Notes: a model not told the origin generated them from the letters alone. Shown: positions 25,396-40,347, counted from the first letter of the stretch. The stretch: 64,000 nucleotides of DNA from Pseudomonadota bacterium (GCA_021798575.1 JAJZGI010000001.1:1-64000), one strand, 5' to 3'. Translations and numbers: made by a program.

Positions 25396-28300
25396 TCAAG
25401 TGTGTCCCATCAGGTCATCGACCTTGGTCGCCTTGATGTATCGGGCCGGATTCTTGTCCACCGCCAGCGCCTTGAAGTGCGCTTCACCGCAGGCAATCTT
25501 CGCCGCTTCCTGGTCGCGCAGGTCATCGACAAACAGGCTGCCCTTGGTCTCCACGACGAAATACAACCGTTCTTCGCCGCTGACCTCAACCAGCACCGCC
25601 CAGTCAGGATTATAGGTGCCCAGCGGAGTCGGCACTTTGAACCAACCTGGCAGCTTGGCGTAGATCTTCACCGCCTCGTTTTTCTCAAGCTGTTCGGCGA
25701 AGGTGCGCTCGACGCCGCCAGAGTCATAAATCACGTGCTCGAACACGGACTTCTGCGCGTCCTTCAGCATGTTGCGCAGATATCCCGTCAGCTCTTCCTG
25801 CTGGAAAAGCTCCTGCGCGTAATACTGGTCTTCACCGATCCGCTGGTATTTGATGCCGTCAACAACAGCCAGCCGCTTGGTCCGATTGATCACCTCGCCC
25901 GCGATCTCGATGAACGCCTGCGGGTTACGCTTAAAGTCCGTCAAACGGCCGCACTCGGTCAAAATGCGGACCAGGCTTTTGCGCGTGAGCTGCGTCCGGT
26001 CCTGAAGATCGGTGAGCACGTCCGGGAGGACGATGTCGCCTTCCTCGATCGTCACGATCGTTCCGCTATCCTTGTCGTGCTCCTTGGCCAGAACGCCGCC
26101 CTGACCAATGGAAAGATCGGCCTTTCTGATCCGCACGCGCGCCTTCGACACGGGCGGGCCGTTGGCGATGGCCTTCGCGCAATCCACTAGCAGCTTCTCG
26201 TTATCGAAGTGAACGCGATAGGTCGTCTTGTGCTTGATCCGATCCCACAGCGCCTGGAACTCGGCGCTTTCCAGAATGGCCTGCCGCGTTTTGACGACCA
26301 CACGCTCATCGGCATTCTTGATATCCAGCTTGCCAGCCACCTTCTTCAGGACGTCGCGCACCGATGCCAGATGCGGCGCCAGCGCCGGCGGCAGAGCGAA
26401 AGAGCCATCCTTCAGCGCGGTGCGAAGGGTGTCCTGCACCTTGCCTTTCGCGTCCACGAACCCCTGCGACTTCAGATGGTCGAAGATCGCCGCTGACTCC
26501 TCGAAGCCGAGCATGCCGGTCGAACCGTCGGCCTTGACGACCGGGATGGCCGCGAACTGATGCTTCTCGACGATGCCGAACTTGATCCCGGTATCCTTCT
26601 CGATTTCCTTCTGCAGGTTTTCGGCGAACTCCTCGTAGCTCTCGGTGGCGATCACGGTCAGCGTGTTGATGTCGAAGCCGCGCAGGCGCTCGCCCTTCTG
26701 ATTGACGCAAAGCCGCAGCCCGCGGCCAATCGTCTGGCGACGCTCGCGTTCAGTTCCGATTTCGCGCAGAGCGCAAATCTGGAAGACGTTGGGATTGTCC
26801 CAGCCTTCCTTCAGCGCCGAGTGGGAGAAGATGAACTTCAGCTTGGTCTCGAAGCCGAGGAGCTTCTCCTTGTCCTTCATGATCAGGTTGTAGGCGCGCT
26901 CCGCGTTGTCGCGGGAGACCTGATTGTTGTCGGCCGTGTCGGTCCAGCGCCTGGCCTTGTCGATCGAGAAATAGCCGTCGTGGACCTCTTCGGCCTCGGA
27001 CGTCAGATCGACCTCCTTGAACAGGCTGACAAACTCGGGAAGTTTCGCCGCGCGCCGGTACTCTTCCTCGAAAATCCGGGCGTATTTGCCCTTTACGGGA
27101 TTCCCGTCGGCGTCATAGGACCGGTAGTGCTCGACCGCGTCGATGAAGAACAGGCTGAGCACCTTAACGCCAAGCGGCGCGAGGCGCTTTTCCTTTTCGA
27201 GATGCTCGTGGATTGTCCGGCGCAGCATCAGCCGCTTCAGCGCATCCGCGTCCACGTCGCCCACGGCCTGGCCGGGCTGGAGAAACGTCTCGCTGCCAGG
27301 CAGCTTCACTTCCAAAAGTTGGTTGTCACGCCCAGCGCGGATCTCGCCGATCCGGCAGTCGGCGTAGATAGCCCGCTTGGTCAGTTCCTCCAGGTCATCG
27401 CCATCTTGAACGACAACTTCCTTGCGGCGAACCTGCTTGCCCTCAAGGACGTCGATTTCAACGCGCGCCGTCACCGGCCCCTTGCCGTTGCTCGCCGAGA
27501 CGAAACGGACATAGGCCTTGTTGTGACCGCCCTCGACTTCGAGCGAGGCGACCTCGATCTGCTTGACCAGCTTGCGCTCATAGGCGTCGACGGCGTCCAG
27601 GCGGAACACCATGTGGTGCTTGTCGACATGGGTCGCCGAGTAGCGCAGCGTGCAGAGCGGGTTCATCTCTCCCAGCGCGTTCTTGCCGGCGCCCGACAGA
27701 CCGCCATCGACGCTTTGAGGTTCATCGACGATCAGGATCGGCCGGGTCGCGCGGATCAGATCGATCGGCCGCTCGCCGCCCGTCTTCTCGCTGTCCTTGT
27801 AAAGGTTGTTGACGTCCTTCTTGTTGATGGCGCCGACGGTCACGACCATGACCTGGATGTTCGGGCTGGTGGCGAAATTGCGCACCTGTCCGAGCTTCGC
27901 GGAATCATAGAGGAAATAGTCGAAGGGCTGGCCGGAGTAGAGGCCCTTGAAATGCTCCTCGGTGATCTGGAGAGTCTTGTAGACGCCTTCCTTGATCGCG
28001 ACCGAAGGCACGACGATGACGAACTTGGTGAACCCATACAGTTTGTTCAGCTCGAAGACCGTCCTTAGGTAGACGTAGGTTTTGCCCGTGCCCGTCTCCA
28101 TCTCGACCGTGAAATCACCGGAGGTCAGCGCCGTTGACGGAGCGAGGCCGTTCCGGAGCTGAATGTCCTTCAGGTTGGCGATGATCTCGTCGTCTAGCAG
28201 GGTCAGCCGGTTGCCGATGCCGAGTTCGCTCTCGACGAGGCCCAGCTCCCCTTGCACACCAAGGAAGCCGCCGAGATCGAGGCTCGGCTGTCCCGCCCGG

Positions 28301-28425
28301 TCCACCATCGGACGGCGCGTCACGGTGAATTCGGTGCGGTTGATCTCCTGGCCGCGAAACAGGTCGGCGACGGATTCAACGGCGAGCTTCTGGTAATCGA
28401 GATCCGGCTCGAAGTGCAGTTTCAT
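25396..28425 (-). CDS. res: Type III restriction enzyme, Res subunit
   Basis: This 1009-residue protein is the ATP-dependent nuclease half of a type III restriction-modification system. The superfamily 2 helicase core has Walker A ETGTGKT (110-116), the DEAD-like box VDEPQ (233-237), LRYSATH as motif III, and QTIGRGLRLCVNQKGERLRG as motif VI. The C-terminal endonuclease domain keeps a PD-(D/E)xK pattern: YNPDW (Asp941) and VVETKGS (Glu959, Lys961). All motifs look intact. It is the last gene of the cargo operon, 10 bp after mod, and needs Mod for target recognition. Confidence 0.93.
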   Translation of the reverse strand: MKLHFEPDLDYQKLAVESVADLFRGQEINRTEFTVTRRPMVDRAGQPSLDLGGFLGVQGELGLVESELGIGNRLTLLDDEIIANLKDIQLRNGLAPSTALTSGDFTVEMETGTGKTYVYLRTVFELNKLYGFTKFVIVVPSVAIKEGVYKTLQITEEHFKGLYSGQPFDYFLYDSAKLGQVRNFATSPNIQVMVVTVGAINKKDVNNLYKDSEKTGGERPIDLIRATRPILIVDEPQSVDGGLSGAGKNALGEMNPLCTLRYSATHVDKHHMVFRLDAVDAYERKLVKQIEVASLEVEGGHNKAYVRFVSASNGKGPVTARVEIDVLEGKQVRRKEVVVQDGDDLEELTKRAIYADCRIGEIRAGRDNQLLEVKLPGSETFLQPGQAVGDVDADALKRLMLRRTIHEHLEKEKRLAPLGVKVLSLFFIDAVEHYRSYDADGNPVKGKYARIFEEEYRRAAKLPEFVSLFKEVDLTSEAEEVHDGYFSIDKARRWTDTADNNQVSRDNAERAYNLIMKDKEKLLGFETKLKFIFSHSALKEGWDNPNVFQICALREIGTERERRQTIGRGLRLCVNQKGERLRGFDINTLTVIATESYEEFAENLQKEIEKDTGIKFGIVEKHQFAAIPVVKADGSTGMLGFEESAAIFDHLKSQGFVDAKGKVQDTLRTALKDGSFALPPALAPHLASVRDVLKKVAGKLDIKNADERVVVKTRQAILESAEFQALWDRIKHKTTYRVHFDNEKLLVDCAKAIANGPPVSKARVRIRKADLSIGQGGVLAKEHDKDSGTIVTIEEGDIVLPDVLTDLQDRTQLTRKSLVRILTECGRLTDFKRNPQAFIEIAGEVINRTKRLAVVDGIKYQRIGEDQYYAQELFQQEELTGYLRNMLKDAQKSVFEHVIYDSGGVERTFAEQLEKNEAVKIYAKLPGWFKVPTPLGTYNPDWAVLVEVSGEERLYFVVETKGSLFVDDLRDQEAAKIACGEAHFKALAVDKNPARYIKATKVDDLMGHT

Positions 28426-28435
28426 CGAACCCTCC

Positions 28436-30490
28436 TCACAGGCTGCGAACGTCTGAAATGCCGTTCTGACTCAGGATCGCCGCCATGTTGGTTTTGGCGA
28501 TGTCGTCGGCGAATCCGGAATCCTTGAACACCACGCGGGTATCGACGGCGGGCGCCATCTCCTTGATCCACGAGACGATGCCGGCGCTCAAGGGCTCGAT
28601 GATGTCCTTGGTCAATTCGTCGGCAAGACATGCGATTAGTGCGCCGCCGCCAATAGAATGGACGGTCTTGTTGGCAATCAACTTTGTCTCGATGGGCACG
28701 CAAAGATCGAGACCCAATTTGAGCAGCAGCTCATAGAGGACGTCCTGCTCCTTGCGCCCTCGTACGAGATGCTCGGCGTTCTTCAGAAGGCTATTTTCCA
28801 GGTCGCCCCCGTCAGGCTCCCAAGCTCGTATATTAGACGACGCAAGCCTGAACACGCGGAAGCCGGTATCGCCAGAAAACCCCGGGTTGTCCGATCGGAC
28901 TTTCAGAGCGCTGCGTCGGAGACGCTCTTTGGTAATCTCGGCGATATTCGCCGGCTTGCCAATATCAGCACAGAACTGGGCTGCGACCTTTTGATCGGCT
29001 TGCTCCACATCCAGGGGCTCCGGCAACTGGACAAGAATATACCTTCGAGATGCAGACTTGCTTGCGTTCTCGGCCATAACCGCATGACCAGTGGTTCCGC
29101 TCCCAGCAAAGAAATCTAAGACAAGATCATCGGGCTCACACAAATAAGAAATTAGACGCGAGATATCATTTACCGGTTTTGGATTGTCAAAAACTCTCTG
29201 ACCATCAAAGAGCGCATTAAACTGATTGGCAGCTGTCTGCGCATAACTGTAGTGAACACTGATCATCACTTGATCAGAATTCTCAAACAAATTTGTTCTT
29301 ACGCGCGGGACCGTGGTTTCGTCTGGACCGAATACAACACGGCCTTTCTCGACCTCCTCCCAAAATCGTTCAGAGGTAGGGTAGCGCCATCCGCTGATAG
29401 GCAATTTACAAGCGCGCTTCGTCTCGGGATGAAGAACCTCGTATCTTGGTCCGTTTCCGCCGGGCCAGTTGATGTTTCCGTCGTCTCGATACGGACCCCT
29501 CTCATCGAACTTGCGAAATCTGGCAAGTGGTTGCCTTGGATCATCCTCATCGAACGTCGCATAAAATGCGAAAATTCCTTCTCTTATCTTCTCCCAATCC
29601 GAACCGTATAAATTCTTTAGACGCTCGAACTCTTCTTTTAATTCTTCAACGCCCTCCTTTTCACCTCGAAAAATGATCTTTTGATCAGAAAGTTTTTGTT
29701 CATTACGTACGTAAATGCACATATATTCGTGACCGACAGAAAAATACTTTGCGTCGTTCTTTCTATTTCTATCGAAAACGAGAGTAGCCAAAAAGTTTTC
29801 CTCTCCGAAGACATCATCTAGAAGCCGCCGAACATTTGGAAATTCCACGTCATCGACGCTCACGATAATAATTCCATCTTCGCGAAGCAGGTTCCGGGCT
29901 AACTTGAATCGTGGATAGGCCATATTGAGCCAATCCGTATGAAAACGGCCCGACGCCTCTGTATTTGATGATATTTTGCGGCCACCCTCAAGTTGACCTG
30001 TCAGTTCCAGATAGTTTTTAATATTGTCTCGAAAATCGTCACGATAGACGAAGTCTTTTCCGGTGTTGTAAGGTGGATCGATATATATAAGCTTCACCTT
30101 GCCCGAATAACTCTTCTGCAGTAACTTTAGAACCTCGAGATTGTCACCTTCGATCATTAGGTTGTGAGTCGTTTCCCAATCGACGCTTTCGTCGGGGCAC
30201 GGCAGTAGCGTACCGGTCGAAGGTGTCAGGGCGATCTGCCGCGCGCGCCGTTTGCCGTGCCAGTTGAGCCCGTACTTCTCATCGCGCTCGTCCACGGCGC
30301 CGCCGAGGAGACCCTTCAGCACTTCGAAGTCGATCTTGCCTTCTGCAAACGCGTCCGGAAACAGCGCCTTCAGCGCATCGATGTTGCCCGCCACAATGTC
30401 GGCGCTCTTCGTCTCGGGGCTTTCGGCGTCAAGCTTCTTCATGATCGGTTCCAACTCAAGCTGGGGCAAATCCGTGGCCGCGGCGATCAC
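28436..30490 (-). CDS. mod: Type III modification methyltransferase, Mod subunit
   Basis: This 684-residue beta-class N6-adenine DNA methyltransferase provides target recognition for the complex. The catalytic motif DPPY (138-141, in IYIDPPYNTGKDF) comes first, then a variable target-recognition region, and the SAM-binding FAGSGTTGHAV (from 461) later. That order is typical for Mod. The part coding for the target-recognition region (about 29.1-30.0 kb) is clearly AT-richer than its surroundings, a sign of domain exchange. It could start at ATG 30490, overlapping the DUF262 gene by 4 bp, or at ATG 30442. Motifs appear intact, so methylation activity is expected. Confidence 0.93.
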   Translation of the reverse strand: MIAAATDLPQLELEPIMKKLDAESPETKSADIVAGNIDALKALFPDAFAEGKIDFEVLKGLLGGAVDERDEKYGLNWHGKRRARQIALTPSTGTLLPCPDESVDWETTHNLMIEGDNLEVLKLLQKSYSGKVKLIYIDPPYNTGKDFVYRDDFRDNIKNYLELTGQLEGGRKISSNTEASGRFHTDWLNMAYPRFKLARNLLREDGIIIVSVDDVEFPNVRRLLDDVFGEENFLATLVFDRNRKNDAKYFSVGHEYMCIYVRNEQKLSDQKIIFRGEKEGVEELKEEFERLKNLYGSDWEKIREGIFAFYATFDEDDPRQPLARFRKFDERGPYRDDGNINWPGGNGPRYEVLHPETKRACKLPISGWRYPTSERFWEEVEKGRVVFGPDETTVPRVRTNLFENSDQVMISVHYSYAQTAANQFNALFDGQRVFDNPKPVNDISRLISYLCEPDDLVLDFFAGSGTTGHAVMAENASKSASRRYILVQLPEPLDVEQADQKVAAQFCADIGKPANIAEITKERLRRSALKVRSDNPGFSGDTGFRVFRLASSNIRAWEPDGGDLENSLLKNAEHLVRGRKEQDVLYELLLKLGLDLCVPIETKLIANKTVHSIGGGALIACLADELTKDIIEPLSAGIVSWIKEMAPAVDTRVVFKDSGFADDIAKTNMAAILSQNGISDVRSL

Positions 30491-32436
30491 GCCGCTTCCA
30501 GGTGCAGAATTTCAGTTTCGACGTAGGTGCGGAAATCCGCCGAGGAGGTGAAGCAGCGGAAGCCCGCTCCACTCGCCAGGGCGAGGATATCCGCGCTCTC
30601 ATTCAGCAACACGGCAACCGGAGCGCTGAGCCCCGCCTGAAGGCCCTCGGGCCAGGCGAGATCAAACAGAGCCTTCTGCGCGCCGGTAGCGGGGTCCGCG
30701 TAGTCAAACCCAATCTGTCCGCGTGGCAGGCCCTGGCCTTCAACCCAATCATTGAGCGATTCCAGCTCGGCTTCTTCAACCTCGCTGGTGATGCCGCCTA
30801 TCATCGGCGCTTCCGCTTCGATCACTGGAGCGGCCTTGCCCATCCAGCGCGTGTCGCCGTGGAGCAATTCTTCGAAGCGACGGTTCGCCTCCGCCGCGAG
30901 CAAGGCCTTCCGAGCTTCGAGAAAATCGAGGTAGCGATCGATTTTCCAGAGCGCCGGATCGGTGGGGATCCACTGAGACGCCAGCGCGCCCGGATGCTTC
31001 GCCTCGATCTCCGGGAAATAGGCCTCCGGCAGCCGATCGCTGATGTTGAGGTTGGTGTCCTTGGTCAGGAAGCAGAAATTCGCCAGAGCGTTCACGTCGG
31101 GGCGACGGTGCTTCAGCTTGTAGAGCTGCGCCTTGGGGAAGATGTGATGCACCTCCAGGCGGCTCATCTTCCCGAGCAGACTGGCCCTGAGCGGCAGCCC
31201 GGTCCCCCAGTCCCGCGCCTCACCCATACGCGTCAGCATATAGAGCACCGGATAAAACCGGGCACCGAGACTCCACCCAGTGAAATGACCGGCTTCGACG
31301 CGCAGTCCGCCGTGCCAAAGCCGCAGTTGCTCCAGCAGCGTATCTAGGCCGCCTTTCGGCCCTTCGAGCGCCGCCAGATCCTGATCGATAAAGCTCTCCG
31401 TCGAACCGGAAAACCGTCCCCACATGCCGGCCTGGGCGAACCAGAAGAGCAGCTTGTCCCGCTCTTTCGCGTCCAGCGAGCCCTTGTTCTTGTCCAAGTA
31501 GCGGACCATCACCGGCACGCCGAAGCGGCCGAAGAACACCTGGTCATGATCGAGCCCGAGGCGTCCGGCGATCAGGTTCAAAGACGCATCGATGTGCTTG
31601 TTGGCGCGCTTCAGCCCATCCTGGATATCGAGCGCGCCCTTGTCGTGCAGGTAGCTGAACTTGGCCTCGCCAGTGAGCACGGTGTTCACCGAACGCAGAA
31701 GCCAATCGAGGTTGAACTGATACCCGGCGGCGGTCCATTCCTTCAGCTTGGCCTTCATGGAGTCGCGGGCTTCCGGCCACTCGGCGCAGATTTTCGCAAG
31801 CGCCAGATCGCCCTTCGACAGTTTGGTGCCGCCGCTGTTCACGCGGTTGAAGATGTCGACCACGACGTCCAGGGTCTTGTCCTGTCCGGTCACCTCTTCG
31901 ATATGCAAATCGATCTCCGTCACGCCGAGCAGCGCGCCGAGCCGGCCGACATAGGCGCCGACATTCGCCACATGAGCGGGGTCAGCCGAGAGCTGCGCGA
32001 TCAGCGCACCCAGGCCTGCGTTCCCAGCCTTCATCAAGCTGGTGACGTCGATCCACAGCGGATCGTCTTGCATTTTCACCGGCTGGTAGAACGCGAAGGT
32101 CTCGGTCCCGAGGTGAAACCGGAGCCCACTAAAGGCCTGCGCATTGCCGTCGAAGAACTTCGGGGGATGGCCCCGCACGACACCATAGAGCGAGGTCATG
32201 CGTTGCTGCCCGTCGAGCAACAGCTTGACGATCCCCGCGGCAAGCGGCCCGTCGCCTCGATGCGCCGCTGTCTTCGCTTCGGTCGCCCACACCAACAGGC
32301 CGCCTACGGGATGGCGGCGATAAAGGGAGTCGAACAGGCCGCGGACCTGGTCGCGGTTCCAGACATAGCCCCGCTGAAATTCGGGCAGCGCCATATGTCC
32401 GCTGTCTATGTGATCCAGGATCGTCGAAATCTTCAT
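30487..32436 (-). CDS. DUF262/HNH protein (GmrSD-like nuclease)
   Basis: This 649-residue protein has an N-terminal DUF262 domain with LPEFQRGYVWNRDQVRGLFD (18-37), the signature DGQQRMTSL (75-83) and VDIFNRVNSGGTKLSKGDLA. The C-terminal half carries a His-Asn-type nuclease pattern: EVHHIFPKAQL (His430, His431) and FLTKDTNLNISDRLPEAYF. DUF262 joined to such a domain is the architecture of GmrS-GmrD type IV enzymes, which cut modified DNA using NTP. Here it is encoded inside a restriction operon, overlapped by 4 bp with DUF4391 and mod. It could attack phage with modified bases that escape the Mod/Res pair (inference). Confidence 0.87.
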   Translation of the reverse strand: MKISTILDHIDSGHMALPEFQRGYVWNRDQVRGLFDSLYRRHPVGGLLVWATEAKTAAHRGDGPLAAGIVKLLLDGQQRMTSLYGVVRGHPPKFFDGNAQAFSGLRFHLGTETFAFYQPVKMQDDPLWIDVTSLMKAGNAGLGALIAQLSADPAHVANVGAYVGRLGALLGVTEIDLHIEEVTGQDKTLDVVVDIFNRVNSGGTKLSKGDLALAKICAEWPEARDSMKAKLKEWTAAGYQFNLDWLLRSVNTVLTGEAKFSYLHDKGALDIQDGLKRANKHIDASLNLIAGRLGLDHDQVFFGRFGVPVMVRYLDKNKGSLDAKERDKLLFWFAQAGMWGRFSGSTESFIDQDLAALEGPKGGLDTLLEQLRLWHGGLRVEAGHFTGWSLGARFYPVLYMLTRMGEARDWGTGLPLRASLLGKMSRLEVHHIFPKAQLYKLKHRRPDVNALANFCFLTKDTNLNISDRLPEAYFPEIEAKHPGALASQWIPTDPALWKIDRYLDFLEARKALLAAEANRRFEELLHGDTRWMGKAAPVIEAEAPMIGGITSEVEEAELESLNDWVEGQGLPRGQIGFDYADPATGAQKALFDLAWPEGLQAGLSAPVAVLLNESADILALASGAGFRCFTSSADFRTYVETEILHLEAA

Positions 32437-33218
32437 GCGCTATCCCCCAGCATCATCTTCTTGTTCCGATCCATTGCGGTCTCTAGCGCTTTGATCTTCT
32501 GATTCAGATCTACTCGCTGGCTAATCTGTTTTGCTTTTGAAGCCTGCGTTCGCAGTTGTGCCGCTTCCCGCGCAAGCCGCGTATGTTCTCCAAGGGCCGT
32601 GCGACGGCGGTCAATAAGCGCGCCCTCGTCTTTTACCTCGTAGACGCCTGAAAGCCGTGCAGCCACCAACGCCTCGATCCGCGCGAGCCAGCCGTCGTAC
32701 ACGGCCGACAGATCGCGCGCTGGCTGACTCTTCAGCGCGATACTTTCCATGAAAGCGCGCTCGGCTACCGGCGGCGTGGCGGGGTCGATCTCGCTGGCGA
32801 CGACAACGCGCTCAACGACAATCTTGTCGCCCTCGTTCTGCGCCGCACGTTTGGGAGCGACCGAGACGGCGACGCCGCCAGGGCCGGTTGTGATCAGCAG
32901 CACCGGATACGGAATTGCGCGGTGGATCAGCTCGGTCAGGCGTGTAGCGCGGGCGTCCGGGCGGAACGTCGCGGCGATGACAGCAATTTCCGAATAGTCG
33001 TGAATTTCGTCTGTGAAGGCGGGAATGGCGATGGTGTTCGGCTTGAGCGCCGCGAGCCAATGGATCTCATCGACGCCGTCCTGAATTGCGCGCTTGTCGG
33101 CGGTCGTTGGCGCGCCTTGCTCGACCAGCATCTTCTTGGGCACGCGCGTATCAACCCGCGCTCGCGGGGGGAGATCGAGAGCGGCGACAATCGCGGCGAT
33201 CGCCGCCATCCCCGTCAT
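32433..33218 (-). CDS. DUF4391 family protein
   Basis: This 261-residue soluble protein matches the DUF4391 pattern: LDLPPRARVDTRVPKKMLVE and DGVDEIHWLAALKPNTIAIP, then YSEIAVIAATFRP and LTELIHRAIPYPVLLI. The C-terminal 70 residues form a charged helical segment, probably coiled coil (LGEHTRLAREAAQLRTQASK). DUF4391 genes are regularly found beside SNF2 helicases and type III mod/res genes, but no activity is established. It overlaps the helicase gene and the DUF262 gene by 4 bp each, so it is part of one translated unit and may bridge the helicase with another subunit. Confidence 0.88.
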   Translation of the reverse strand: MTGMAAIAAIVAALDLPPRARVDTRVPKKMLVEQGAPTTADKRAIQDGVDEIHWLAALKPNTIAIPAFTDEIHDYSEIAVIAATFRPDARATRLTELIHRAIPYPVLLITTGPGGVAVSVAPKRAAQNEGDKIVVERVVVASEIDPATPPVAERAFMESIALKSQPARDLSAVYDGWLARIEALVAARLSGVYEVKDEGALIDRRRTALGEHTRLAREAAQLRTQASKAKQISQRVDLNQKIKALETAMDRNKKMMLGDSA

Positions 33219-36200
33219 GAAGCAGCACTCGTCGAGGGGGCAAAAGCGACCAGGAAGGCGACCACCTCGAAGTCGTTGATTCCGGCGAATTCGCCCTTCA
33301 TGGCGTGCGTGCCGCCCATCTGAAACAGGCTGGCGACTGCGCGCTCTTCGCGCTTGCCCACGAGGGTCCCGATGGCCCGGGCGAGCAACTTGCGATAGGG
33401 CTCCATGTCGCGGCCCGATCGGGTCGCTTTGTCGAAGCGCTTGTAGGCCTCCTGGTCAGGCTGATCGTGACCAAGGCTGAGCTTTTTCAAGCGGTCGAGC
33501 ACCTGCTTCGCCTGCGTATAGGGAAGCAGGACCTCTCCGTCATCGCCGACATGGACGACGTAGTGCGGCGCCAGCGGATAGCCGGGCTCCGCGACCGCGA
33601 GCGCCGCCTCCCCAACGGCCCTCAGACAGAAGATGACGCCAGGCGGAATCGGGTTCTCCCTGTCGCCCAGAGCCTCGGTAACTGCATACGTCCCGAGCGG
33701 TAACGCATCGAGGCGGCTTCGATTGGTTCGCAGAAACCCTGCAAGATCGATGCGAAAATCGTTGAGGGTGAGGTCCGCGATGGAGACGCCACTCGACAGA
33801 TCTTCAAGATCGATCACGGCGTCCTGTAGCTTCTGAAGCTGAGCGCGCCGGTACTCCAGGTCGTTCATCTCGTTGCCGGCCTGGAACTCGATGACGTTTT
33901 CCTCGCCCGTCGCCGACACGTCGAGAAGCATCATGCGTCCGCTGACACGGGATTCGAGGTCGAGATATTCGTCCAGCTCCATATTCGGCCAGAAGTTGAC
34001 CAACTGTATTTTCGAGTTCTGCGAGCCGATCCGGTCCACGCGCCCGAAGCGCTGGATGATGCGGACCGGGTTCCAGTGAATGTCGTAGTTGATGAGAAAG
34101 TCGCAGTCCTGGAGGTTCTGCCCCTCCGAGATGCAGTCGGTCGCGATCAGAAGATCGATTTCGCCTTCCGATGCGAGTTCGGCAGGACGTTCCTTGGAAC
34201 GTGGCGAGAAGGCGCTCAGGATGCCGCTCATGTCACCGCGGACGCCGGGCATCGTGGTTCGGTTGGAACCGGTGCCGCTGACGACGGCGCAGTGAACGCC
34301 AAGCGAGCCACGCGCCCATGTGGCAATGTCGCGATACAGGTAGTCTGCAGTGTCGGCGAAGGCCGTGAACAGCAGGATCTTCCGGTTGCCCGCATTTATC
34401 GGCGCACGCACCTTGTCGGCAATTATCCGCTTGAGCGCCGCCAGCTTCGCGTCACGGTCTGGCGTGACAAGGCGAGCGGCTGCCAGGAGTGCGCGAAGAC
34501 GGTCTCGATCTTCGACGAGGTCCTGGCGCCAGCGCACCCGGTCAACATCTTGCAGAAGCACTTTGACCTTCCGGCCCACCAGCAGCGCCTCGAAAGCCGG
34601 GTCATCCACATCTATATCGTCGATCGGCACCTCGTCGACGGAGTCGTCATGTGCATCGATCTTGGCGAGTAGGGCTTCGACGTCCCTGAGTTGACGTTCA
34701 ATGGTGAGCGCGAACGACGCGACCGAGCTCTCCATGCGCTTCAAGATGTTCACCCGCAGCAGGTGAATGAGGCTTTCTTCTCGATCGACCTGGCGGAAGA
34801 ACCGCTCGCCTCCACGAATTTTTGTGCTGTACTTCTCGTCGTAGGACGCCTGCTTATGGGGCAGCACGTAACGAAGCGGGGCGTATGCGCCGAGGGTCAG
34901 ACGACGAATTTCGTTGTTTATCTCGCGGATCGGACGGAATGCGCCGTCGAGGTCGACGTCAGCCTTGATATTCACTGGCGGAAGCCGATCGGGGAACTGG
35001 CCGGTCTCCGCTGTACCGTAATAACGCTGAACATGCTTTCGCGAACGGGCAATGGTGAGCATGTCGAGCAGCTTGAAATAGTCGAAGCCGAGCATATCCA
35101 TAAGGCGCGCGGGCCGCCGGTCGGCCTCAGCCAGATCAAGCCACCGGTTGAACTGACCTTGGGCCTTACGGATCGTGGCTTCGATGCTGGGGATGCCATA
35201 ACCGGCAAGAGCCACATCGTTCCCTTCCGTCACAAAGGCGATTTGATTCTTCAGGTCAGCGAGCCGGTTGTTGACAGGCGTCGCCGACAGCATCAACACC
35301 TTGGTCTTCACCCCGGACTGGATGATCCGCTTCATCAAATGGTCGTAGCGGGTATCCCGATCCTTATGAGTGGGCTTGTTCCGGAAGTTATGAGACTCGT
35401 CGATGACGACGAGATCGTAATTGCCCCAATTGACGTGTGAGAGATCGATATCGCCGGACAGACCACCATCCCGCGAAAGATCCGTGTGATTCAAAACATC
35501 GTAGTTCAGCCTGTCGGGCGCTAAGACGTTCCGACGGTCGTTGGCCTTATAAAGGGTCCAGTTGTCGCGAAGCCGTTTGGGACAGAGCACGAGGACGCGA
35601 TCATTGCGGAGCTCGTAATACTTGATGACGGCAAGAGCTTCGAAGGTTTTTCCGAGGCCGACACTGTCGGCGATTATGCAACCGCCGATGCGTTCAAGCT
35701 TGTCGATGGCGCCGGTCACGCCATCGCGTTGAAAGCGAAAAAGCTTCTTCCAAACTACCGTATCCCGAATACCAGTCGCGGACTTGATGATCCGCTCTTC
35801 ATCCAGCTCGTCGCCCAAATCCTTGAACATCTGATAGAGGATCTGGAAGTAGACGACCGATGGCGAACGCGGGGACGCCATATCTTCCAGAGCAGCAAGG
35901 AATGATGCCTTGGCCTCCGGTTCCGCGCGCAGATCATTCCAGTTCGACTCGAACCATTCAGCGTAGCTCGCAGCCTCGGAATCGACATCCGTCGCTTGCA
36001 CGAGGCCAAGCAGCCCGCCCGGAGTCAGCCCAAGACCTTCCGTTGTAAACGAGCAAGTGCCCATCATGGCCTTGCCTGGGGACGGGTTGCCACGAACGAA
36101 GATTAGCGATTGGGGCGGCGCCTTTCGCGCATTCCGGATTTCGGCCTTCTTGGCGATCCAGTCGGCGGCGGCACGAGCGAGCCACCGTCCTTGAAGTTGC

Positions 36201-36427
36201 CCCCTGAAGGTGATGTCACCGTCCCCACCGAGCAGCGACGTGGCGATTGAATTCGGCTCACCGAGCAGCAGCCGGCAACGATCGACGCGCTCAAGGGTGT
36301 CCTTGAGCTCGGCAAAAGCCCAAAGAGAAAACGAGGACGACACAAGATCAACACGCGCCCCTGGCGTCAGCCAACCGCGCAGAAGATCAACAGCTCGATC
36401 CGTTCCACTATTTCGAAGAAGCCTCAT
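33215..36427 (-). CDS. SNF2-type helicase with degenerate PLD-like N-terminus
   Basis: This 1070-residue protein begins with a phospholipase-D-like region (about 1-165: VDLVSSSFSLWAFAELKDTL and later GKAMMGTCSFTTEGLG). The expected catalytic His before the Lys (HxK) is not seen, as the sequence reads SPGKAMMG, so this domain is probably structural or a DNA/protein dock. The SNF2 ATPase follows: Walker A GLGKT (257-261), DESH box (343-346), LSATPVNN, and late motifs GQNLQDCDFLINYDIHWNP and QRFGRVDRIGS. The C-terminal 250 residues are of unknown type. It is the first large gene of the cargo operon and probably its motor or sensor. Confidence 0.88.
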   Translation of the reverse strand: MRLLRNSGTDRAVDLLRGWLTPGARVDLVSSSFSLWAFAELKDTLERVDRCRLLLGEPNSIATSLLGGDGDITFRGQLQGRWLARAAADWIAKKAEIRNARKAPPQSLIFVRGNPSPGKAMMGTCSFTTEGLGLTPGGLLGLVQATDVDSEAASYAEWFESNWNDLRAEPEAKASFLAALEDMASPRSPSVVYFQILYQMFKDLGDELDEERIIKSATGIRDTVVWKKLFRFQRDGVTGAIDKLERIGGCIIADSVGLGKTFEALAVIKYYELRNDRVLVLCPKRLRDNWTLYKANDRRNVLAPDRLNYDVLNHTDLSRDGGLSGDIDLSHVNWGNYDLVVIDESHNFRNKPTHKDRDTRYDHLMKRIIQSGVKTKVLMLSATPVNNRLADLKNQIAFVTEGNDVALAGYGIPSIEATIRKAQGQFNRWLDLAEADRRPARLMDMLGFDYFKLLDMLTIARSRKHVQRYYGTAETGQFPDRLPPVNIKADVDLDGAFRPIREINNEIRRLTLGAYAPLRYVLPHKQASYDEKYSTKIRGGERFFRQVDREESLIHLLRVNILKRMESSVASFALTIERQLRDVEALLAKIDAHDDSVDEVPIDDIDVDDPAFEALLVGRKVKVLLQDVDRVRWRQDLVEDRDRLRALLAAARLVTPDRDAKLAALKRIIADKVRAPINAGNRKILLFTAFADTADYLYRDIATWARGSLGVHCAVVSGTGSNRTTMPGVRGDMSGILSAFSPRSKERPAELASEGEIDLLIATDCISEGQNLQDCDFLINYDIHWNPVRIIQRFGRVDRIGSQNSKIQLVNFWPNMELDEYLDLESRVSGRMMLLDVSATGEENVIEFQAGNEMNDLEYRRAQLQKLQDAVIDLEDLSSGVSIADLTLNDFRIDLAGFLRTNRSRLDALPLGTYAVTEALGDRENPIPPGVIFCLRAVGEAALAVAEPGYPLAPHYVVHVGDDGEVLLPYTQAKQVLDRLKKLSLGHDQPDQEAYKRFDKATRSGRDMEPYRKLLARAIGTLVGKREERAVASLFQMGGTHAMKGEFAGINDFEVVAFLVAFAPSTSAAS

Positions 36428-36630
36428 CGACCATCACCGGGCAGACTGCTGGGCGGCGGGGATGGCTGATCTATTGGCCGTGGGTTTGCCTCGATGAACT
36501 GCCTGATGGCTTGGCGGATAACCCACGAGATGGAAGCATCTCTGGCCAGTGCAATTTCATTGAGCGTCCGATAGTCCTGCTCTTCCAGGCTCACGGTCAA
36601 CCGCGTTGCCTTCCGTGGACGCTCGTTCAT
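36424..36630 (-). CDS. Ribbon-helix-helix protein, probable operon regulator
   Basis: This 68-residue protein has a ribbon-helix-helix core: KATRLTVSLEEQDYRTLNEI as strand and first helix, then ASISWVIRQAIRQFIEANP as the second, with a Pro/Ser-rich tail. The ATG at 36630 was preferred because GGGGAG stands 4 bases upstream and the domain begins here. An open frame reaches further to 36867 without conserved sequence. It overlaps the helicase start by 4 bp and is the first gene of the cargo operon. Small RHH proteins in that place usually repress their own promoter, so it may control the defence genes on entry into a new host (inference). Confidence 0.75.
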   Translation of the reverse strand: MNERPRKATRLTVSLEEQDYRTLNEIALARDASISWVIRQAIRQFIEANPRPIDQPSPPPSSLPGDGR

Positions 36631-36984
36631 GCCACTCCCCACGATTCCATGCCCAATCTTAGCCCCATGCTCATCAGACTTCAACGAAGTGATGCACTTT
36701 TCACCAGTTCGATTGTCCACGATGAACGCCTTGAGCGCCGGGCAATTCGAGATTGATATGGGTTTGGCGTCCAGGCGCTGTTGACGGCGCCGCCGCGCGT
36801 TCTCGCCCTGGATTGAGTGCCGAGACAACATTTTCGTCGGGAACCTACGGTTACTCAGCGCGGGCAACCCTTCCGATTCCTACGCCAGAACGCCCCACGG
36901 CCCTACGCTCCCAACTCAGCCCTTCCCATGGCCAGAGACTATCGGTTTCCATCGGCATCAGACGCCAAGCAAGGAGACCCCGTC
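36631..36984. promoter_or_regulatory. Divergent promoter region between cargo operon and AlpA-type gene
   Basis: This 354-bp stretch between the minus-strand cargo operon and the plus-strand AlpA-type gene holds no supported gene. It must hold the promoters of both. I see no clear -35/-10 pair and no strong palindrome. The ribosome-binding site AAGGAG (36971-36976) of the AlpA-type gene lies at its right end. Confidence 0.5.
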
Positions 36985-38796: not shown

Positions 38797-38830
38797 TCAT
38801 TCCCACTCGATCGTGCCGGGGGGTTTGCTT
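38797..38830. other. Presumed attachment site at the 3' end of guaA
   Basis: The last codons of guaA (reading PPGTIEWE and stop) lie against the integrase region, and mobile-element sequence begins at about 38,796. Islands that use guaA normally recombine in this terminal stretch and rebuild the reading frame. The exact core cannot be set because the partner site is outside the window. Confidence 0.45.
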
Positions 38831-40347
38831 GTCAGGTCGTAGGTGACGCGGTTGATGCCGCGCACCTCGTTGACGATGCGGTTGGCGACGCGGGATAAGA
38901 ACGCCATCTCGAACGGGTAGATGTCGGCGGTCATGCCATCCGTGCTGGTGACGGCGCGCAGGGCGCAGACCTGGTCGTAGGTGCGGCCATCACCCATCAC
39001 GCCGACGGATTTGACCGGCAGCAGCACGGCGAAGGCCTGCCAGATGGAATCATACAGGCCGGCGGCGCGGATCTCCTCCAGGTAGATCGCATCGGCCTTT
39101 TGCAGGATGGCGACGGACTCCGCCGTGACGGCGCCCAGGATACGGATGGCGAGACCCGGGCCGGGGAATGGATGGCGGCCCACCATGTGCGCGGGCAGGC
39201 CGAGCTCCCGGCCCAGGGCGCGGACCTCGTCCTTAAACAGCTCCCGCAGGGGCTCGACCAGCCTGAGCTTCATGAAGTCCGGCAGGCCGCCGACATTATG
39301 GTGGGATTTGATGGTGACGCTGGGACCGCCGAGTGCGCTGACCGACTCGATGACGTCCGGGTAGAGCGTGCCCTGGGCCAGGAAATCCGCGCCGCCGAGT
39401 TTTTTGGCCTCCTCGTCGAAGACCTCGATGAACAGCCGGCCGATGGTTTTGCGCTTGGCCTCGGGGTCTGTGACGCCAGATAGCGCGCCCAGGAAGAGCG
39501 CCGATGCGTCCCGGTGGATGAGCTGGATGTTGAACTGGTCCCGGAAGATTTGCACGACCTCATCTGCCTCCCCCGCGCGGAGCAGGCCGTGGTCCACGAA
39601 GATGCAGACGAGCTGCTCGCCCACGGCCTCATGGATGAGGGCCGCGGCGACGGAGGAGTCGACGCCGCCGGAGAGGCCACAGATGACGCGCCCATTACCG
39701 ACCTGGGCGCGGATTTTGGCGATCTCAGAGGTGCGGAAGCCAGCCATCGTCCAGCCGCCGGACAGGCCGCAGACGCCATGGGTGAAGTTGCGGAGCAGTT
39801 GCGCGCCGTGCGGCGTGTGGACGACCTCCGGGTGGAACATGAGGCCGTAGAAGTGGCGGGAGTCGTCCGCGATGATGGCAAACGGCGCGCCGGGCGAGAC
39901 GGCGACGGTGCGAAAGCCGGGCGGTGGGGCGGAGATGTGGTCGCCGTGGCTCATCCAGACCTGCTCGCGCGCGCCCAGGTGCCAAAGGCCCTCGAACAAC
40001 GCGCAATCGGCCATGATCTCGACCTCGGCGCGGCCAAACTCCCGGATTTCAGCCCCCTTAACGTCGCCGCCCAACTGCGCGCACATGACCATCTGGCCGT
40101 AGCAGATGCCCAGCACGGGCACGCCCATGGAAAACGCGGATTCCGGGGCGCGGGGCGAGCCCGCATCCGCCACGCTGGCCGGGCCGCCCGAGAGGATGAT
40201 GCCGCGCGGCGCGAATTCGGCGATGCGCGTGGGCGCGGCGTTGAAGGGCAGGATCTCGCAGTAGACGCCCGATTCCCGCACGCGGCGGGCGATGAGCTGG
40301 GTGAGCTGGCTGCCGAAATCGAGGATCAGGATTTTTTCATCAAACAT
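38797..40347 (-). CDS. guaA: GMP synthase (glutamine-hydrolysing)
   Basis: This 516-residue enzyme converts XMP, ATP and glutamine to GMP. The N-terminal class I glutamine amidotransferase has the nucleophile Cys82 in LGICYGQ and a later MFHPEVVHT with its catalytic His and Glu. The ATP pyrophosphatase domain has the PP-loop SGGVDSSV and the C-terminal dimerisation part ends [11 protein letters not shown]. It is full length in spite of serving as the integration site. It is last in the guaB-rsmB-GNAT-guaA group, 14 bp after the GNAT gene. Confidence 0.97.

Follow-up and report, generated by a model that had tools for sequence, protein, structure and literature searches.

What does a modification-dependent nuclease do in an operon that methylates the DNA of its own host? 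This question is raised by a window of 64,000 nucleotides from the genome of a Pseudomonadota bacterium (GCA_021798575.1 JAJZGI010000001.1:1-64000), in which the gene of a DUF262 protein of the GmrSD family directly adjoins that of a type III methyltransferase (Mod). An earlier note on this DNA had considered the combination dangerous and puzzling because enzymes of this family cut modified DNA, and it had offered two ways out, i.e., either the DUF262 enzyme ignores N6-methyladenine (m6A) or another subunit of the operon restrains it. Our analysis leads us to a reading to which we give a probability of roughly 0.7: the gene would encode a self-sufficient enzyme of the GmrSD/BrxU type that cuts cytosine-modified phage DNA, an optional passenger of the adenine-methylating operon that ignores m6A and acts independently of Mod and the type III endonuclease Res.

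The DUF262 protein and its operon

The gene is found on the minus strand (Table 1), since the same interval (30487-32436) contains a stop when read on the plus strand, and it is not a chance open reading frame because one scan of genome contigs returned 424 relatives. Pfam places GmrSD_N (PF03235, E=3.4e-24) at residues 3-216 of the protein, which also matches the HEC-05 profile of PADLOC (PDLC04151, E=6.6e-42). The DGQQR and HH motifs that had been reported as complete are indeed both intact, with the latter reading VHHIFP in full (residues 429-434) and H431 as the histidine of the catalytic center. In an alignment of 54 homologues from many phyla, D75-R79, HHIFP, N453, and N462 show no variation. 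The Pfam profile of the C-terminal part, GmrSD_C (PF07510), has no match in this protein, so that its HNH-type nuclease domain is recognized by the conserved motif residues together with the fold. The last ca. 100 residues form a small alpha/beta domain in the AlphaFold model. Between near-identical copies of the protein this domain is among the least conserved stretches, and when used alone as a query it retrieved matches only within the same subfamily, on plasmids.

A sequence search of the PDB with the whole protein gave BrxU (7P9K) as the sole match (E=5.2e-12; E=9.8e-20 by profile search). BrxU was also the best Foldseek match of the AlphaFold monomer model (mean pLDDT 84, pTM 0.70), extending over the whole length with 609 alignment columns (E=9.4e-16) and followed by SspE (E=5e-5). 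The global TM-score against BrxU is just 0.36-0.40, probably due to a different placement of the domains, and BrxU has been described as a flexible, interlocked dimer (PMC8565348). In the profile alignment, HHIFP pairs weakly with the DHIYP motif of BrxU. By profile and predicted fold, we assign the protein to the BrxU/HEC-05 group of type IV enzymes within the GmrSD family.

Table 1. Features of the DUF262 gene, its operon, and the adjacent integrase (window positions).
Feature	Position	Strand	Evidence or remark
Type III Res (DEAD/ResIII helicase + RE_endonuc PD-(D/E)xK)	25396..28425	minus	PDLC03647 E=0; RE_endonuc E=1e-35
Type III Mod of the beta class (DPPY before FxGxG), predicted to methylate adenine at N6	28436..30490	minus	PDLC03634 E=1e-209
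DUF262/His-Me finger protein (GmrSD family, BrxU/HEC-05 group)	30487..32436	minus	649 aa, ATG start
C-terminal domain, residues ~550-649	30490..30789	minus	predicted alpha-beta-beta-beta-alpha-beta-alpha
His-Me finger partners N453 and N462	31078-31080 and 31051-31053	minus	conserved residues
HHIFP motif, residues 430-434	31135..31149	minus	counterpart of BrxU DHIYP
GmrSD_N (DUF262, ParB/Srx-like NTPase) domain	31789..32430	minus	profile match
DGQQR motif, residues 75-79	32200..32214	minus	translation; invariant in 54 homologues
DUF4391 protein (PF14335), constant cassette member	32433..33218	minus	profile match
SNF2 helicase with N-terminal PLD-like domain (PADLOC C3a139 HKD+Snf2)	33215..36427	minus	profile matches
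RHH (CopG-type) protein, probable regulator, operon head	36424..36867	minus	profile match
Tyrosine integrase, downstream of guaA	37247..38515	minus	profile match

The genes are arranged in the order RHH, SNF2 helicase with a degenerate PLD domain, DUF4391, DUF262, Mod, and Res, all on the minus strand. Overlaps of 4 nt with both the upstream DUF4391 gene (ATGA) and the downstream mod gene (GTGA) show that the DUF262 gene belongs to one operon with them, and Mod and Res are full type III proteins, which confirms its reported place inside a methylating operon. The window contains the arrangement by which type III systems are recognized, i.e., a beta-class m6A Mod followed by a Res with helicase and PD-(D/E)xK parts, yet it exceeds a two-gene mod-res system by the helicase and DUF4391 genes before mod, and the same is true for other cassettes that we sampled. 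In the open-licence literature we found neither DUF4391 nor a type III system of this gene composition described, and the DUF4391 fold gave no PDB match below E=0.001.

Some further features of the operon genes are worth recording. The listed TTG start of the RHH gene is probably too early, with the true start lying internally, because its homologue in a related cassette (L022) has only 86 aa and begins nearer to the RHH domain. At residues ~95-140 of the helicase, the PLD-like domain shows no HxK of an HKD motif, and the same holds for ca. 27 related cassettes, so that this domain is probably not a nuclease despite the PADLOC name HKD+Snf2. Compared with L022 and a second related cassette (L023), the N-terminal ca. 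200 aa of the helicase (~65% identity), DUF4391 (~70%), and the target-recognition region of Mod diverge fast, while the helicase core, DUF262, and Res are ~90% identical or more. At the head of the operon, the tyrosine integrase gene is directly 3' of guaA (38797-40347), which suggests that an island has integrated at the 3' end of guaA. As for att direct repeats, the integrase-guaA region (38.5-38.9 kb) shares no word of at least 14 bases with the rest of the window.

Coexistence with adenine methylation

Enzymes of the GmrSD/BrxU type target C5-modified cytosine (PMC8565348, PMC13390438), and BrxU cleaves DNA with this kind of modification while an unmodified control is left uncut (PMC13390438). 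In Escherichia fergusonii, where brxU is found alongside four type I systems as well as Dam, 1810 of 1812 BREX sites carry m6A, and for defense BrxU suffices by itself (PMC8565348). Similarly, TgvAB works within an active type I restriction-modification (RM) operon that methylates its host, and HEC-05 and HEC-06 are said to act independently (PMC11411939). The supposed danger of combining the DUF262 enzyme with Mod is thus not supported and the puzzle largely resolved, because BrxU and TgvAB coexist with host m6A and the relatives target C5-modified cytosine instead. Of the two proposed ways out, the one in which the enzyme ignores m6A is well supported by analogy with these relatives. The restraining subunit was rejected as improbable because close relatives are found without any of the other operon genes.

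Three observations on the methylation side bear on the same question. The host genome encodes a CcrM-like m6A methyltransferase besides Mod (NF050803, 593.7 bits over 348 of 350 positions, a score below the NCBI cut-off of 830 bits), so that m6A would be expected genome-wide with or without Mod. The Mod proteins of the window and L022 are ~90% identical towards their ends but only ~10-35% in their middle, target-recognition part. With the DUF262 proteins 94% identical despite these unrelated regions, the enzyme does not follow the Mod target, and we discarded an enzyme that specifically reads the mark of its Mod on these grounds. In L023 (13068-15544), an IS110-type insertion splits mod and the DUF262 gene is intact, indicating that Mod is not needed to keep this gene. 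A Mutator-type transposase gene interrupts mod in a further cassette (L135:7511-8764), and the other cassette genes beside the broken mod stay open in both L023 and L135.

Genomic settings of the relatives

The best 80 of the 424 relatives are full length and 68-94% identical to the window protein, come from many phyla, and contain no in-frame stops. Their contexts can be counted only approximately, as best matches rather than a random sample and classed with few reference genes: ca. 30 of the 80 are part of type I RM operons, where almost all of them occupy the hsdS-hsdR interval and 4-nt overlaps are common, while six belong to helicase-DUF4391 type III cassettes (L022, L023, L032, L083, L084, and the partial L092). 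Two follow DUF1156/DUF499 genes, and single relatives are found at the end of type III genes among which DUF4391 was not detected (L025), after brxL in a BREX operon with confirmed PglZ (L024), and with a DEAD/MZB helicase. About 38 of the 80 lack any of these defense contexts, and some of these have ordinary neighbors such as an AMP-binding enzyme, YicC, an EamA transporter, or a sulfatase. The HEC-05 profile of PADLOC also matches relatives from type I, BREX, and stand-alone loci. For more distant relatives on plasmids (52-67% identity), the neighbors are DISARM genes or other helicase/methylase sets, and some have no recognized RM partner.

Because relatives with 68-94% identity occur in type I, type III, BREX, and DUF1156/DUF499 operons as well as alone, the enzyme generally seems to require no partner subunit. 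At the level of gene content and sequence comparison, this reading is supported by the stand-alone occurrence of close relatives and by the failure of DUF262 to track Mod. The association of the family with methylating operons is nevertheless common and could mean more than co-mobilization. A quick tree of the DUF262 proteins, to be taken as indicative, sets the type I group apart, and at least four changes of label along well-supported branches are required to account for the type III cassettes. The cassette proteins of L083 and L084 are nearer to the window than those of L032, whereas for DUF262 it is L032 that is nearer, and this difference in ranking suggests that the DUF262 gene and the cassette were acquired separately. 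On a plasmid of Planctomycetes bacterium K2D (L020:4374-16335), a distant DUF262 gene (~29% identity) separates type III mod from res, with a RapA-like helicase encoded at the same locus, and the family has thus entered a type III system in this case by a further, independent insertion.

The junction between DUF4391 and mod

We searched ca. 780 genomes for DUF4391 cassettes independently of DUF262 and could judge the DUF4391-mod junction in 28 of them besides the window. In 16 of the 28 cassettes this junction is empty and the two genes directly adjoin (-80 to 25 nt), while inserts of roughly 0.3-2.2 kb fill it in the other 12 (L127, L133, L134, L138, L139, L140, L144, L147, L148, L149, L150, and L152). 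None of these 12 inserts belongs to the DUF262 subfamily of the window. Most of them resemble defense or toxin-antitoxin genes. Among them are an AbiJ-like gene, zeta toxins accompanied by a small partner, a GmrSD gene of the HEC-06 type (L138), and a PDC-S46 gene (L144), besides KilA-N, DUF2130, DUF4160/DUF2442, and HTH genes. The mod-res junction is a second insert site that can be occupied by Schlafen/AlbA, Fic, and RhuM genes.

The DUF262 gene is therefore an optional passenger of the type III cassette, and the DUF4391-mod junction (32433-32436 in the window) acts as a cargo slot that resembles the hsdS-hsdR junction of type I systems, which was the less expected result of our analysis. 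A bolder proposal would be that helicase, DUF4391, Mod, and Res form a distinct extended type III system in which both junctions are true slots that repeatedly gain interchangeable back-up defenses in parallel to type I hsdS-hsdR, with DUF262 activity coupled to failure of the methylating system beyond mere co-inheritance. We regard this combination as improbable.

Proposed function and alternatives

By analogy with BrxU, the DUF262 domain would bind and hydrolyze NTP via DGQQR. The enzyme would then recognize modified cytosine, most probably in a hydroxymethylated or glycosylated form instead of plain 5mC, and recognition would trigger DNA cutting by the His-Me finger (H431, N453, N462). Regarding the substrate, BrxU also cuts plain 5mC (PMC8565348), and if the present subfamily did the same, its carriers would be expected to lack C5 methyltransferases. 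We observed no depletion of PF00145 in carriers (28 of 50, compared with 136 of 249 background genomes; the groups are unmatched and the counts reflect gene presence, not activity), which weakly favors a substrate narrower than that of BrxU, such as 5hmC or glycosylated forms. The genome to which the window belongs gave no match to PF00145. The enzyme would act independently of the co-transcribed Mod and Res and ignore m6A, resulting in two layers of defense: Res would cut DNA without the Mod mark, and the DUF262 enzyme would cut hypermodified phage DNA that resists Res. It would thus serve as back-up restriction of phages that escape the type III system through modified cytosines. In this proposal, NTP use, cutting, substrate, and phage defense are all carried over from the relatives.

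Other readings of the same operon have to be weighed against this one. The DUF262 enzyme might be kept inactive as long as the type III system functions and attack phage or host DNA once a phage inhibits that system, like PrrC in a type IC system. The 4-nt overlaps, which point to coupled translation, and the abortive- or toxin-like character of other cargo at the DUF4391-mod junction (AbiJ-like, zeta toxin, PDC-S46) would fit such a guard. However, we think it unlikely given that close relatives occur by themselves between housekeeping genes or as part of unrelated systems, that the DUF262 gene persists next to the interrupted mod of L023, and that characterized relatives restrict alone (PMC8565348, PMC11411939). 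We give still less credence to sensing in the manner of SspE, where the enzyme would read the m6A mark set by Mod and need it for activity against unmarked DNA. SspE is the second fold match and the DUF262 family is frequent in operons with m6A methyltransferases, but the 94% identity of DUF262 across unrelated Mod target-recognition regions, the broken mod of L023, the stand-alone copies, and the different RM types of the partner systems all argue against it.

The protein could also be a catalytically dead passenger or a regulator, as the variable C-terminal part among near relatives might suggest, though this is very unlikely with all catalytic positions invariant in 54 homologues from many phyla and zero in-frame stops in the best 80 genome copies. 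Hardest to believe is that another operon subunit holds back a nuclease directed against methylated host DNA, an idea for which only the co-transcription of the genes speaks: most close relatives have no adjacent DUF4391, helicase, Mod, or Res, the DUF4391 and helicase genes are equally present in cassettes without DUF262, and the host already has the CcrM-like m6A enzyme.

With a self-sufficient enzyme that ignores m6A as our preferred reading, the apparent conflict of a modification-dependent nuclease beside a methylase would become a clear case of layered defense. The locus extends the range of RM-embedded GmrSD enzymes from type I and BREX systems to a type III-like cassette, with one strongly conserved enzyme built into methylating systems of several unrelated kinds in many phyla, and it marks the DUF4391-mod junction as a place to seek further defense genes.

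Comparison with known systems

BrxU from plasmid pEFER of E. fergusonii (PDB 7P9K/7P9M; HEC-05 in PADLOC) shares with the window protein the DUF262 domain with DGQQR, a helical middle, and a C-terminal His-Me nuclease, and both are single polypeptides tied to a methylating defense operon. However, their identity is only ~20%, which makes it uncertain to carry the BrxU substrate over to the window protein, and BrxU lacks the extra C-terminal domain of ca. 100 aa and sits in BREX rather than in a type III-like cassette. SspE has a DUF262 + DUF1524-like architecture in common with the window protein, but its fold match is far weaker than that of BrxU, and it has sspABCD partners, whereas profile searches found no sspABCD modification (phosphorothioation) genes among the operon genes of the window. 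The HEC-06 GmrSD gene of L138 fills the same junction, between DUF4391 and mod, in a cassette of this type from another genome but, unlike the window protein, belongs to a different GmrSD branch with detectable GmrSD_C, and we therefore interpret it as an independent insertion. RloF-type DUF262 genes in type I RM loci and TgvAB on VPI-2 of Vibrio cholerae are, as in the window, GmrSD-family genes inserted within an RM operon, though TgvAB requires two DUF262 proteins whereas the window has a single gene in a type III operon. The locus thus represents a familiar arrangement, in which a type IV enzyme of the BrxU/HEC-05 type is embedded in a methylating operon, in this case a type III-like one.
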